NCBI GenBank assembly: GCA_947625865.1
Contig: CANQQD010000013.1
Coordinates: 1 to 41,752 of the forward strand
DNA: 41,752 nt
Reading direction: 5' to 3'
From: an uncultured Clostridia bacterium
GTDB taxonomy: Bacteria > Bacillota > Clostridia > Christensenellales > Borkfalkiaceae
Part shown: in pieces, positions 17,006-21,267 of the stretch
Layout: each line of letters opens with the position of its first letter
Position numbering within the stretch: the first letter of the stretch is position 1
Made by a program: the position numbers and the translations under genes
Notes under the pieces: generated by a model
The model's input: only the letters and a program-made list of their open reading frames with translations
Told to the model about the DNA's origin: nothing
The model's database searches: none

Positions 17006-18082
17006 TTATTCCTGTTCGCTTGCGGTAAATCCGAGCTTTGCTGCGGCAGATTCGCTTTTTACGTCGATCTTCCAACCCGTAAGCCTTACTGCAAGGCGGG
17101 CGTTCTGACCGTCCTTACCTATTGCAAGCGACAATTTGTCGTCGGGTACCACTGCCATAGCCGTCTTATCGCCGTCGAGCTGTGTAACCGAGATCACCTT
17201 TGCGGGTGAAAGAGCCTTTGCAATAAATTCCAAAGGATTCTCGCTCCAAGGTATTATATCTATCTTCTCGCCTCTGAGTTCCTCTACTACGGCGTTTACC
17301 CTCGCGCCCTTGTTGCCGACGCATGCGCCTATAGCGTCCACTCTCTCATCCTCGGAATAAATAGCAATCTTGGTCCTTGCGCCGGCTTCGCGGCTGATTT
17401 CTTTGATTATGACCGTACCCTGCTTTATTTCGGGCACTTCTTCCTCAAAAAGCTTTCTGACCAACCCGGGAGCCGAGCGGCTTACAAGCACCTGTGCGCC
17501 ATGATATCCGCTCTTTACCCTTTTCACGAATACTTTGATTTTATCGTTTACGTTATATTTTTCGCCCGGAACCTGATCGGAGGGAAGCATAAGCCCTTCA
17601 ACCTGTCCCTTGCCGAGTTCCACATAAACGTTGCGCGCGTCTATTTTTCTTATGATACCGACAAGCAACTCGCCCTCTTTGTTGGAGAACTCGTTCATCG
17701 CGGCGTCGCGCTCCGTTTCATGGATCTTTTGCAGTATGACCTGCTTTGCAGTCTGCGCGGCTATGCGGCTGAAGTCTTTGGGAACAAACTTTTCGGCAAC
17801 CTGATCGCCTACCTTATAGCTCTTCTTGATTTTTTGGGCATCCTCTAAGGATATCTCCATTTCACTGTCGGCAACCTCTTCCACAACCGTTTTGACTGTG
17901 TAGAAATCAATGGTACCCTTTTCGGGATTCAATTTTATATCGACCTGTCCTGCCGCAACCGCATACTGCTTTTTGCAAGCGGAAACAAGGGCGTTCGAAA
18001 GCGCCTCCATGAATACTTCCTGAGGTATGCCTTTTTCTTTTTCAAGGTCTTCCAAGGCTACAAAAAAATCTTTGTTGGTCAT
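17006..18082 (-). CDS. nusA: Transcription termination/antitermination factor NusA
   Basis: NusA binds RNA polymerase and nascent RNA to control pausing, termination and antitermination. The 358 residues contain the N-terminal polymerase-binding domain, an S1 domain (about 130-200, with VGIIRKIDARNVYVELG), and tandem KH domains, including GACVGNKGARVNAVVEELRGE and LAIGKDGQNARLAVRLTG. There is no C-terminal acidic-repeat extension, as usual in Bacillota. AGGAG precedes the ATG. Confidence 0.97.
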   Translation of the reverse strand: MTNKDFFVALEDLEKEKGIPQEVFMEALSNALVSACKKQYAVAAGQVDIKLNPEKGTIDFYTVKTVVEEVADSEMEISLEDAQKIKKSYKVGDQVAEKFVPKDFSRIAAQTAKQVILQKIHETERDAAMNEFSNKEGELLVGIIRKIDARNVYVELGKGQVEGLMLPSDQVPGEKYNVNDKIKVFVKRVKSGYHGAQVLVSRSAPGLVRKLFEEEVPEIKQGTVIIKEISREAGARTKIAIYSEDERVDAIGACVGNKGARVNAVVEELRGEKIDIIPWSENPLEFIAKALSPAKVISVTQLDGDKTAMAVVPDDKLSLAIGKDGQNARLAVRLTGWKIDVKSESAAAKLGFTASEQE

Positions 18083-18108: not shown

Positions 18109-18567
18109 TTATTCAAATTTAATGGCTTTATTTATTTTTGCGATTCTGTTGAGGGCTATTTTCAACTCTTCCTTTTCCGTTTTCAGCGTAATTGCGTTCC
18201 CGTCATACTCGAGCAAAAGCCCCTCATAATATTTCCTGCCTTTAATGGGCGCATAGAGCTTGACCTCCACTTCTTTATCGAGATTCCTCTCAAAGTCGCG
18301 CCCTGTCTTAAAAGGTCTGTCAAGTCCGGGGCTTGAAACATTTAATGTGTATGGAGCGTCGTATGTCGGATCGAGCACGTCGATAGGATCCATGATCGCA
18401 TTGTGAAACTCTTCGCAAACATCTAAACTGACGCCGTTCTCAGTATCAATAAGAACTGTCAGTTCCGACGAACGGTCGTTCCATTCAACGTCAACAACCT
18501 CAATGCCCATAGGCGTTGCTATGCTCTCCATAAAAGCGCGGATCTCGGATAAAGGTTTTATGTTCAT
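18109..18567 (-). CDS. rimP: Ribosome maturation factor RimP
   Basis: RimP assists 30S assembly. The 152 residues show the family features VVDVEWNDRSSELTVLID and the conserved YTLNVSSPGLDRPFKTGRDFERNL block, followed by a C-terminal Sm-like domain. The ATG is preceded by GAGGG. It is the first gene after the stem-loop and candidate promoter at 18586-18667, so the rimP-nusA-infB segment may have its own transcription start. Confidence 0.95.
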   Translation of the reverse strand: MNIKPLSEIRAFMESIATPMGIEVVDVEWNDRSSELTVLIDTENGVSLDVCEEFHNAIMDPIDVLDPTYDAPYTLNVSSPGLDRPFKTGRDFERNLDKEVEVKLYAPIKGRKYYEGLLLEYDGNAITLKTEKEELKIALNRIAKINKAIKFE

Positions 18568-18585: not shown

Positions 18586-18611
18586 ATTGAGTGCCCCGCA
18601 GGGCACTCAAT
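18586..18611 (-). other. Stem-loop upstream of rimP
   Basis: A perfect 11-base stem ATTGAGTGCCC / GGGCACTCAAT (18586-18596, 18601-18611) has a 4-base loop. It lies in the 116-base gap between the PolC-like gene and rimP, 19 bases before the rimP ATG. There is no U run after it on either strand, so it could be a 5' UTR structure of rimP, or a processing or stability element, rather than a terminator. Confidence 0.65.
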
Positions 18612-18683: not shown

Positions 18684-20222
18684 TTATCCAAACTTAGGCA
18701 AAGATTTTTTAAGCTTTATAAGCTCAATAAATATCTTAGCCGTGGCTAACGCGTCGTCTATGGCTCTGTGATGATTGAAAACGATATTGAATTTGTCGGC
18801 TACGGTATTGAGCTTGTAATTTGAAAGAAACAGTAGCTCTTGCGCGAGTGGGATAGTATCTATCATTTTTCTGTCAAGGATATATCCAAGGCGCGCACAA
18901 TAATATTCCACGAACTTAAAGTCGAAGCCCTCAATATTGTGTCCGACGAGAATACTGCCGCTGCAGAATTTATAAAAATCGGGCATTACCTCCTCGTACG
19001 TGGGCGCGCCGGCTACCATATCCTCGGTTATACCCGTCAGTCTTATAATTTCATCCGAAAGCTTTACCTGAGGATTGACAAACGTAGAGAACGATTCGCA
19101 AATCCTTCCGTCCTCTATCTTAAATGCGCCGATCTCGATTATTTTATCCATATTTCCGGATAACGGCGAGGAATTCAAACCGGTAGTCTCAAGATCGAGG
19201 ACTACAAAGGTTTTGTTTTTGAGACACTCGGGAATTACGTTTTGAGAAAACAGATCTGTTTGCCGAACGTCTGAAAACGGTTGCGGCGAAACGTAATGAT
19301 AATATCTCGGAACAGGCTTCGACGCCCTTTTCCGGGGCACGAAATTTTCGGGATATTTGCCGTAGTCGATTATATTTGCCGTATATCTCAAGCTGCCGTT
19401 ATACATCTCGTTGGAGCCTGTGCATACTATGCTGTCACCAACCTTAAGGCACTTGATCTTATCGTAGCTCTTCTGGCGGATAAAATAGGTTATATGTATG
19501 CTCGCCGTTGTATCTGATAATACCAGCGACAGATATGTTTTTTTAATGCCCTTTTTATTTGTATACTCGCGCTCGTTTAATTGCTCTATGGTCCCGCAAA
19601 TCACCACTTCCTCTGCGGCAAAATTCAGATCGGAAAGATAGACGGCGGTGGTCTGCTTTTTTGTGCCTTCGAGGTATCTGAACCCGTTTATCTCAAACCT
19701 GCGCACAGGAACCTCATATTCTATTTCGTCGCGCTTTTCCTCGACCTTGATATCATCAGCACCCCTTTTCGAAGAAATACATTCGCCGCGGAAGTCTCCG
19801 CAAAAATGTGTTTTCAAATATCCGTCTATTTTTTCCGTGAAATCTTGCCCGACCTGCATAAACGGCATTACCGCAATCGTATAGTAAAAGCCGTAATCTG
19901 TTTTTTCAACCTTAATATCCTCTTCTTTGACTGTAACGTAGACCGCCTTGAAGTTGAGCGAAATTGCCTCTTCTATTTTACGCTTCACCATTTCACAGTC
20001 GGGAGCAAGCTTGATAATGCTGACTTCACAATCAAAATATGCCGGCACGGCGGGTTGGACCACCGAAAGAACGGCGTTTTTATCGGCTTCGCCGAACGTC
20101 GTTTCTGTTATAAATTCAATATTGACCGTGCGCGTTGCTTTTTCGACGGTGACCGAACGCAAAATCGCGTTTTTCATGTTTTCGGAAGAAGCGCGCACTG
20201 CTTCTAAAATATCACCGCTCAT
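18684..20222 (-). CDS. PolC-derived N-terminal/OB/exonuclease protein lacking PHP and polymerase
   Basis: This 512-residue protein occupies the place polC holds in Clostridia (ispG-polC-rimP-nusA). Residues about 1-180 resemble the PolC N-terminal region. An OB fold lies at about 200-290 (CGTIEQLNEREY to RYTANIIDYG). After a 40-residue linker comes a DEDDh exonuclease with D343 and E345 in LDLETTG, D434 in GHNIEGFDF, and H485/D490 in HHRAIDDALATA. The PHP domain, in which the exonuclease is normally inserted, and the whole polymerase module are missing; the frame ends naturally and the next 116 bases hold no remnant. It overlaps ispG by 11 bases. It could act as a separate proofreading or repair 3'-5' exonuclease. 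Confidence 0.88.
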   Translation of the reverse strand: MSGDILEAVRASSENMKNAILRSVTVEKATRTVNIEFITETTFGEADKNAVLSVVQPAVPAYFDCEVSIIKLAPDCEMVKRKIEEAISLNFKAVYVTVKEEDIKVEKTDYGFYYTIAVMPFMQVGQDFTEKIDGYLKTHFCGDFRGECISSKRGADDIKVEEKRDEIEYEVPVRRFEINGFRYLEGTKKQTTAVYLSDLNFAAEEVVICGTIEQLNEREYTNKKGIKKTYLSLVLSDTTASIHITYFIRQKSYDKIKCLKVGDSIVCTGSNEMYNGSLRYTANIIDYGKYPENFVPRKRASKPVPRYYHYVSPQPFSDVRQTDLFSQNVIPECLKNKTFVVLDLETTGLNSSPLSGNMDKIIEIGAFKIEDGRICESFSTFVNPQVKLSDEIIRLTGITEDMVAGAPTYEEVMPDFYKFCSGSILVGHNIEGFDFKFVEYYCARLGYILDRKMIDTIPLAQELLFLSNYKLNTVADKFNIVFNHHRAIDDALATAKIFIELIKLKKSLPKFG

Positions 20223-21267
20223 TTAAAAGCTTGTCTATCTCCTTAAAAAATTCTTCTTCTGCAACAGTTGCGGCGACCTTTTTTATGATTTCGCCGCCCT
20301 TGAAAATAACGCAATAATCCTTTGCGCCCGCAATTCCGAGGTCGCAGTCCTTCGCCTCGCCGGGTCCGTTCACAACGCAGCCCATGACGGCGATATTCAA
20401 AGACCTATTGCTGTTCTCCACATATTCGGTAACCTTCTTTGCTATCTCCATAGAATTCCACATGCATCTGCCGCATGTGGGGCAAGAAATTACGTTTACA
20501 TAATTTTTATCGAGCCCGACCGCCCTTAAAAGCCTGCGCGCGGCAAGTACTTCCTTTACCGGATCGTCGGTTATGGAGACACGCATTGTATCCCCGATAC
20601 CGTCTAACAGCAAGGCGCCGAGAGCGGCAGCCGATTTGACAACCGCCATTTGCTCCGTTCCCGCCTCCGTCACGCCTATATGCAAGGGATAATCCGTACG
20701 CGAAGCGAGCAGGCGGTATGCCTTTACCGTTAAAGGCACGCTCGACGCTTTTACAGAGATAACGATATCCTGCACGCCGTACTTTTCCAGAACCCCCACG
20801 CTTTTTAAGGCGCTTTCCACAAGCGAATATTCGTTTTTGCCGTATTTTTGCAAAAAATCCTTTTCTATGCTGCCGGTGTTGGCGCCCACCCTTACGGGAA
20901 TACCGTGGGATTTAATGCAGTCGGCGACATATCCTATCTCTTTATCGCCGCCGATATTGCCGGGATTTATGCGCACTTTATCGGCGCCGTTTTCAATAGC
21001 TTTAACGGCAAGCTCCGCCGAAAAATGGATGTCCGCAACAATCGGAATATGTATTTTATTTTTTATTTCCGCAATAGCTCGGGCGTCATACGCGTCGAGC
21101 ACCGACACTCTTATAATTTCACAGCCCGCTTCTTCCAGCCGCAAAATCTGCGCGCATGTAGCTTCGGCGTCCGACGTTTTTGTCGTGCACATCGATTGAA
21201 TTTTAACGCTTTCGCCGCCGCCGATTCTAACGTTGCCTATTGTTACCTTTTTTGATTTGTATTCCAT
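20212..21267 (-). CDS. ispG: Flavodoxin-dependent HMBPP synthase (IspG/GcpE)
   Basis: IspG converts MEcPP to HMBPP in the MEP isoprenoid pathway, using a [4Fe-4S] cluster. The 351 residues show a TIM-barrel N-terminus (TIGNVRIGGG...IQSMC) and the C-terminal cluster region with cysteines in CPTCGRCMWN and GCVVNGPGEAKDCDLG. The gene normally lies with ispC and rseP; these are absent and nrdR is upstream instead. No clear Shine-Dalgarno precedes the ATG, where the sequence reads TATTCTTTGAAAT. Confidence 0.96.
   Translation of the reverse strand: MEYKSKKVTIGNVRIGGGESVKIQSMCTTKTSDAEATCAQILRLEEAGCEIIRVSVLDAYDARAIAEIKNKIHIPIVADIHFSAELAVKAIENGADKVRINPGNIGGDKEIGYVADCIKSHGIPVRVGANTGSIEKDFLQKYGKNEYSLVESALKSVGVLEKYGVQDIVISVKASSVPLTVKAYRLLASRTDYPLHIGVTEAGTEQMAVVKSAAALGALLLDGIGDTMRVSITDDPVKEVLAARRLLRAVGLDKNYVNVISCPTCGRCMWNSMEIAKKVTEYVENSNRSLNIAVMGCVVNGPGEAKDCDLGIAGAKDYCVIFKGGEIIKKVAATVAEEEFFKEIDKLLNER

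Follow-up and report, generated by a model that had tools for sequence, protein, structure and literature searches.

The question that this locus raises is what stands in the place of polC in an uncultured Clostridia bacterium, and what it does there. The window, i.e., the whole stretch of DNA that was analysed (41,752 nucleotides), holds the arrangement ispG, ORF, rimP, nusA, infB, these being the names that we presume for the neighbours. An earlier note had regarded ispG-polC-rimP-nusA as the usual arrangement in Clostridia. This arrangement does occur, but it is not universal within the taxonomic order to which the bacterium belongs: ispG and rimP lay directly on both sides of full PolC loci in 10 of 28 cases, and ispG alone in most of the others. 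The features of the slot are as follows.

18684..20222, minus strand: reduced polC gene, 512 amino acids, ATG start, encoding a PolC N-terminal domain (NTD), an OB fold, a linker and a DEDDh exonuclease
19689..20222, minus strand: residues 1-178, PolC-type NTD (NTD profile match and AlphaFold2 model)
19329..19676, minus strand: residues 183-298, PolC-type OB fold (sub-threshold Pfam match and profile comparison)
19218..19328, minus strand: residues 299-335, linker at the site of the former first part of the PHP domain (alignments, low pLDDT)
19248..19262, minus strand: residues 321-325, QTDLF, putative sliding-clamp-binding pentapeptide of the QxxLF type (translation, column conservation)
18699..19217, minus strand: residues 336-508, PolC-type DEDDh 3'-5' exonuclease with D343, E345, D434, H485 and D490 (Pfam, alignment, solved relatives)
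20212..21267, minus strand: presumed ispG, upstream neighbour (ORF, conserved neighbourhood)
18109..18567, minus strand: presumed rimP, downstream neighbour (ORF, conserved neighbourhood)
17006..18082, minus strand: presumed nusA, next neighbour downstream (ORF, conserved neighbourhood)

The description of the ORF in the earlier note, 512 residues with a PolC-like N-terminal region, an OB fold and a complete DEDDh set, was confirmed by the ORF itself, Pfam, alignment and profile comparison. RNase_T matched residues 340-498 (E 5.1e-36), and D343, E345, D434, H485 and D490 were invariant in 26 aligned sequences including that of the window. The OB fold at residues 206-278 reached 22.7 bits, which is under the Pfam cut-off of 27, and the best NCBI family model for the protein was PolC, with 172.6 bits against the cut-off of 873 for full PolC (TIGR01405 / NF001688). 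The ORF stops four residues past residue 508, and Pfam gave no match to a helicase domain as in the DinG and DEDD helicase fusions. In the AlphaFold2 single-chain model (mean pLDDT 85.1, pTM 0.55), the N-terminal subdomains are folded, the OB stretch is rich in strands, the exonuclease is present and the linker is floppy, with pLDDT below 50 at residues 322-327. The predicted NTD (pLDDT mostly 79-92 up to residue 150 and 50-69 at residues 151-170) consists of alternating helices and strands, which would fit two KH-like subdomains; the NTD of PolC is described as KH-like in a part of PMC3919608. The OB and KH-like fold assignments rest on profiles and the secondary structure of the model, with which they are compatible. 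The domain order is well supported, and the relative placement of the domains in the model is without such support.

Descent of the gene from polC, of which it appears to be the front end, is likewise well supported by sequence comparison. The profile of 26 reduced proteins aligned with that of seven full PolCs of the order over 479 colinear columns (100%, E 3.6e-59). The comparison was also done part by part, so that the exonuclease could not drive the scores of the NTD and the OB fold; using 71 reduced proteins and 31 full PolCs, the NTD alone matched the PolC NTD in hhalign at 98.2% (E 3.6e-14), as against at most 1.6% for seven control profiles, and the OB fold alone matched the PolC OB fold at 99.5% (E 1.3e-22), followed by the OB fold of DnaE at 95.4% and, as the next best, a reversed control at 8.7%. 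The view that the N-terminal 300 residues are PolC-like, which an unrelated N-terminus would have overturned, was thus borne out. The nearest solved relatives of the exonuclease were PolC exonucleases (E 1.3e-54 and 3.9e-39), with DnaQ and DinG at 1.1e-29 or worse, and, the window's own match excepted, 29 of the 30 matches to the exonuclease profile at E 1e-55 or better in a phylum sample lay in PolC-sized ORFs. The proteobacterial DnaQ equivalog TIGR01406 was not reached (91.8 bits, cut-off 222.7), and the broader domain model TIGR00573 was passed (100.8 against 71.5 bits). The tree of PolC, DnaQ and DinG exonucleases that the earlier note had proposed did not settle the matter: with 79 rows, among them E. 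coli DnaQ and further proteins of the DEDDh type, the deep branches stayed unresolved. In this exonuclease-only tree, one row of the other proteins fell amid the reduced rows, DnaQ sat on a long branch and the reduced rows needed three changes, and, its deep branches being what they are, it was set aside as evidence of descent.

The PHP domain around the exonuclease, the palm, the fingers and the HhH of PolC are missing in the reduced protein, as is the C-terminal clamp motif, in place of which a motif is found in the linker. The loss of PHP had been recognised before, together with its replacement by a linker of about 40 residues; the second part needs refinement in one detail. In full-length relatives, the stretch from the OB fold to the exonuclease measured 77-95 amino acids in 31 of 33 extracted cases (the other two were extraction errors), and therefore the linker stands for 80-90 residues, and a further stretch of about 900 residues behind the exonuclease is also gone. 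The absence of any polymerase remnant was confirmed by tblastn of 35 ORFs longer than 1,300 amino acids from PolC loci against the window, with matches accepted up to E 1; two of these queries (L059 and L150) were another long ORF of the locus in the wrong frame. There were 53 matches in the window, and 31 of the 32 in the slot stemmed from the NTD or exonuclease part of the query. The other 22 of the 53 matches had E 0.002 or worse, and the window thus showed no remnant of the PolC polymerase or PHP. A decaying remnant or an assembly artefact would also lack a polymerase, which is truly missing here, in a sequence that comes from a MAG. We give this explanation practically no credence: a full-length or nearly full-length ORF was present in 21 of 25 genomes of the same genus (the other four comprised three pieces at contig ends and one genome without a match), the reduced form occurs in 15 families, and dN/dS is well below 1.

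The earlier note had asked whether the replicative polymerase was moved, split or replaced. The polymerase of PolC is lost, and DnaE is the sole C-family polymerase that was found. The genome of the window, which is 94% complete, has one PF07733 match, in a DnaE frame of 1210 amino acids, and it showed no second and no full-length polC. A moved or split polymerase was rejected on the searches of the genome, the clade and the order. In the set of 41 genomes of relatives, exactly one C-family match was present in 29 of the 32 genomes of the reduced clade and more than one in none of the 32; none was found in the remaining G005, G009 and G016. All 19 complete DnaEs that were read, one of them from a genome whose reduced protein has a dead exonuclease, keep the PHP signature residues (one histidine was read by eye) and have an internal clamp motif of the QxSxF type, which in one is QTTIF. 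An intact PHP together with the clamp motifs would make this DnaE DnaE1-like. The clamp gene is present.

How far the reduced form extends was addressed in 198 genomes from the order; all but one had a completeness of 90% or more and a contamination of no more than 5%. PolC over the cut-off was found in 67 and clear PolC fragments in two more (G067 and G078), and neither was found in 129. The 71 reduced proteins that were read came from 15 families (f1, f3, f6, f8, f9, f10, f14, f16, f18, f19, f20, f23, f25, f26 and f28). The survey of related genomes suggested by the earlier note thus revealed a form common to a clade of 15 families and not an oddity of one genome. Its gene was flanked by ispG and rimP in 18 of 20 loci (L002-L021), in 5 of 6 loci from other families and in 15 of another 20; some of the remaining loci stop at a contig end, and four from f25 had no ispG found alongside. 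Named loci with the reduced protein, 29 in number, belonged to uncultured Clostridia or Clostridiales MAGs, one of which was labelled Christensenella. In the class sample, PolC was over the cut-off in 269 of 293 genomes, and nine of the other 24 lay outside the order; eight of these yielded no full reduced protein in a search with the reduced profile, and the ninth, G403, had a strong partial PolC match (1.7e-197). In the phylum sample of 199 genomes, the profile was matched by 31 at E 1e-55 or better, a threshold that could miss strongly diverged short forms; these were the window's own protein, 29 ORFs of 1403-1543 amino acids and one frame of 701 amino acids near a contig end. Beyond the order, the genomes searched in the class and phylum samples yielded no short form. 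From other families, G297, G452 and G474 gave exonuclease-only matches in frames of 177-212 amino acids. In G253 and G276 (f59) and in G430 and G485 (f93), from other families of the class, there was neither PolC over the cut-off nor a convincing reduced form, and PolC may have been wholly lost in these four. In G058 (f11), the search turned up no PolC and no reduced form, and a DEDDh match at L168:2430-3332 presumably belongs to a Cas2-DEDDh fusion.

A species tree from ispG, nusA, infB and rimP, obtained by a quick search on the 55 of 60 loci that had two or more of these genes, placed all 35 reduced taxa, including seven with a dead exonuclease, in one clade (SH-aLRT 100), nested among PolC-bearing taxa of the order and with PolC-bearing outgroups. 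Trees from the OB fold and the exonuclease, which held PolC sequences only and left out the 15 dead-exonuclease proteins and most of the window's own genus, agreed. In the final one, 30 reduced rows formed one clade (99/100, the bootstrap not having settled) beside 21 full and 10 outgroup rows; it was also made without seven near relatives, the mis-extracted L059, L149 and L225, and L150, which had no domain. In the version with 35 PolC ORFs and 30 reduced rows, the three mis-extracted rows fell among the reduced ones; L059 was presumably the other long ORF of its locus, and L149 and L225 the wrong domain row. A smaller tree of 39 of the 71 reduced proteins and 15 motif-filtered PolC rows (12 from the order and three outgroup) again gave one reduced clade (99/98). 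The sampled carriers being a single clade nested within relatives that have PolC, these sequences are most simply explained by a single reduction. The reverse course, in which full-length PolC arose from an ancestral short form, would agree with how widespread the short form is in the order, but we hold it to be very improbable given the nesting of the reduced taxa, the PolC-bearing outgroups and the confinement of the short form to the order in the samples searched, in which diverged ones could be missed.

The earlier note had also claimed that the exonuclease was kept under selection, and in the window's own genus this is the case: its median dN/dS was 0.14 (35 of 210 pairs with dS below 2), and it was the best conserved part, with a mean identity of 73% versus 41% for the NTD and 54% for the OB fold. 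The DEDDh set was complete in 56 of the 71 reduced proteins. The linker has a conserved element of its own. In the 26 aligned sequences, Q321 was invariant and F325 was conserved in at least 90%, and Q-x-x-[LMIF]-[FL] stood at the QTDLF column in 49 of the 56 proteins with an intact exonuclease (1.9 expected from shuffled linkers) and, beyond the own genus, in 24 of 30 (1.1 expected), the expectation counting the motif anywhere in the linker; the strict motif was missing in 7 of the 56. Of 37 full-length PolCs, 35 had the motif close to the C-terminus and one had it at the junction of OB fold and PHP. The motif of PolC was therefore lost with its C-terminus, and the reduced protein has one at a new place, in a segment that is predicted to be flexible from its low pLDDT. 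An excerpt of PMC12309361 gives QL[S/D]LF or QxxLF as the clamp-binding consensus and describes a dimeric clamp with two sites. The linker motif probably ties the protein to the sliding clamp.

Taking these features together, we consider it likely that the protein is a PolC-derived, clamp-tethered proofreader that works on DnaE in trans, as an analogue of epsilon. PolC lost its polymerase and PHP parts, most simply once, in the common ancestor of a large clade of one clostridial order, leaving DnaE as the sole C-family replicase, and the NTD-OB-exonuclease piece was retained at the old locus with the clamp motif, formerly at the C-terminus of PolC, now in the linker between the OB fold and the exonuclease. 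The reduced protein would occupy one pocket of the dimeric clamp via Q-x-x-[L/M/I/F]-[F/L] and DnaE the other via its internal QxSxF, and the exonuclease, if active, could thus reach and trim a mispaired 3' end left by DnaE, being epsilon-like in action and PolC-derived in origin. There is a precedent in Bacillus subtilis, where, according to a part of PMC5627055, the exonuclease of PolC corrects in trans the errors that DnaE makes, and synthesis by DnaE is stimulated by polymerase-deficient PolC, slightly more so with DnaN. By analogy, the reduced protein looks like a natural, shortened polymerase-deficient PolC. On the other hand, a DnaE with a full PHP metal site may proofread by itself, and its PHP could then leave the reduced protein free to be a clamp-bound repair exonuclease, for example in mismatch-repair excision or primer removal, a role to which a clamp motif and an exonuclease are equally suited. 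We regard such a repair role as unlikely, because the protein originates from the proofreading domain of a replicase and is retained where DnaE was the sole C-family polymerase to be found, and because trans-proofreading has a precedent in B. subtilis.

A further point that speaks against a trans-acting proofreader comes from the lineages in which the exonuclease is dead. Of the 71 proteins, 15 have lost either all five DEDDh residues (14 proteins) or four of them (G134); they belong to f16, part of f19 and the genus g68 of f28, and the species tree with its seven dead-exonuclease taxa needs three changes for the loss. These proteins remain next to ispG. None of the 15 has the strict motif at the aligned column, and 12 have Q there in a looser Q-h-x-h. 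The gene persists after the loss of DEDDh, and therefore more than nuclease activity alone is being kept. The protein could then be mainly a structural replisome adaptor made of the NTD, the OB fold and the clamp motif, its nuclease being secondary. In favour of this are the three lineages that keep the protein, the locus and the loose motif without nearly the whole DEDDh set, and purifying selection in the dead-exonuclease proteins of f19 (dN/dS 0.17-0.24 by region, from one to five pairs). Selection looks weaker in f16 (0.44-0.71) and in g68 of f28 (0.40-0.65), each from few pairs, and the exonuclease is the most conserved part in the own genus, so that an adaptor in the first place seems improbable to us.

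A proofreading role would fit what accompanies the loss. In a search with PF00929 at E 1e-10 or better in 45 genomes, a separate DEDDh-family frame of 190-236 amino acids was found in 9 of 15 dead-exonuclease genomes versus 2 of 30 with an intact exonuclease (G026 and, weakly at 2.5e-11, G061), which, treating the genomes as independent, gives a Fisher value of 2e-4, or 5e-5 without G061. G029, an intact-exonuclease genome outside the 45, also has a small exonuclease, and with it the counts are 3 of 31 and the value 6e-4. No such separate frame was seen in the other 6 of 15, and longer frames of 334-474 amino acids with PF00929 matches were present in both groups. This correlation suggests that the small frame replaced the proofreader in the dead-exonuclease lineages. 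The fuller account, in which polC was converted once, in place, into the clamp-tethered proofreader of another polymerase with the motif re-created in the linker, and in which a separate DEDDh exonuclease later took over from this proofreader on three occasions while the pseudo-exonuclease persisted as a replisome adaptor, has in our view slightly less than an even chance of being right. Two small stand-alone DEDDh exonucleases, at L190:1444-2007 and L191:1372-1941, come from genomes whose reduced PolC has a dead exonuclease and are candidate replacing proofreaders. When these two were read for a clamp motif of their own, there was no convincing case.

Among known systems, PolC shares with the reduced protein the locus and the colinear NTD, OB fold and DEDDh exonuclease, but the latter is without the PHP domain, the polymerase and the C-terminal clamp motif and has its motif in the linker. 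DnaQ, the epsilon of E. coli Pol III, is likewise a separate DEDDh exonuclease beside a DnaE, as judged here from residues and the ORF, whereas the reduced protein has a PolC-type exonuclease by similarity, an N-terminal NTD and OB fold, and an origin by reduction of a polymerase. Epsilon has a C-terminal tail that binds alpha. It also contacts the clamp, very weakly, as stated in a section of PMC12309361. A part of PMC3919608 describes PolCs without the exonuclease insertion, 6% of PolCs and nearly all from Clostridia and Negativicutes; these resemble the present case as a domain loss from PolC within the same class, but there the polymerase is kept and the exonuclease gone, so that the opposite part was lost. 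With the polymerase-deficient PolC of B. subtilis in vitro (part of PMC5627055), the likeness would be a DnaE helped by an exonuclease without polymerase activity, and the difference is that it is a laboratory mutant of the polymerase and not a natural short protein.

Clostridia with PolC and DnaE1, and some with DnaE1 alone, are described in excerpts of PMC3919608, which call the PolC plus DnaE1 system experimentally uncharacterised and ask what role PolC has in Clostridia whose DnaE1 can replicate alone. A part of PMC4070872 names two Clostridia without PolC, and most Clostridia have three potentially active proofreaders according to a portion of the 2026 polymerase and proofreader survey PMC12926913. 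A PolC-derived stand-alone exonuclease was not found described in the open-licence PMC literature searched; the C-family polymerase section of PMC12926913 does not mention such a protein, nor do excerpts of PMC3919608, PMC4070872 and PMC3774996. The present data reveal a whole clade that dropped the polymerase of PolC and kept its proofreading part, and what PolC durably contributes in cells of this kind may accordingly be proofreading. The reduction would represent a route for the origin of a trans-acting proofreader that is distinct from DnaQ, and the later loss of the exonuclease in three lineages constitutes a natural experiment.

Some minor observations concern individual loci. In L129, L130, L131 and L171 (genus g19), the ORFs are 555-666 amino acids long with the first start codon within ispG, and their true start is uncertain. 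L118:2992-3630 encodes an exonuclease-only relative of 213 amino acids without the NTD and OB fold; the frame upstream of it is presumably ThiI-like, and therefore a copy of the linker-exonuclease piece may have moved. Between the reduced polC and rimP, the window has a perfect inverted repeat at 18587-18610, TTGAGTGCCC, four bases and GGGCACTCAA, which could be a terminator or attenuator.
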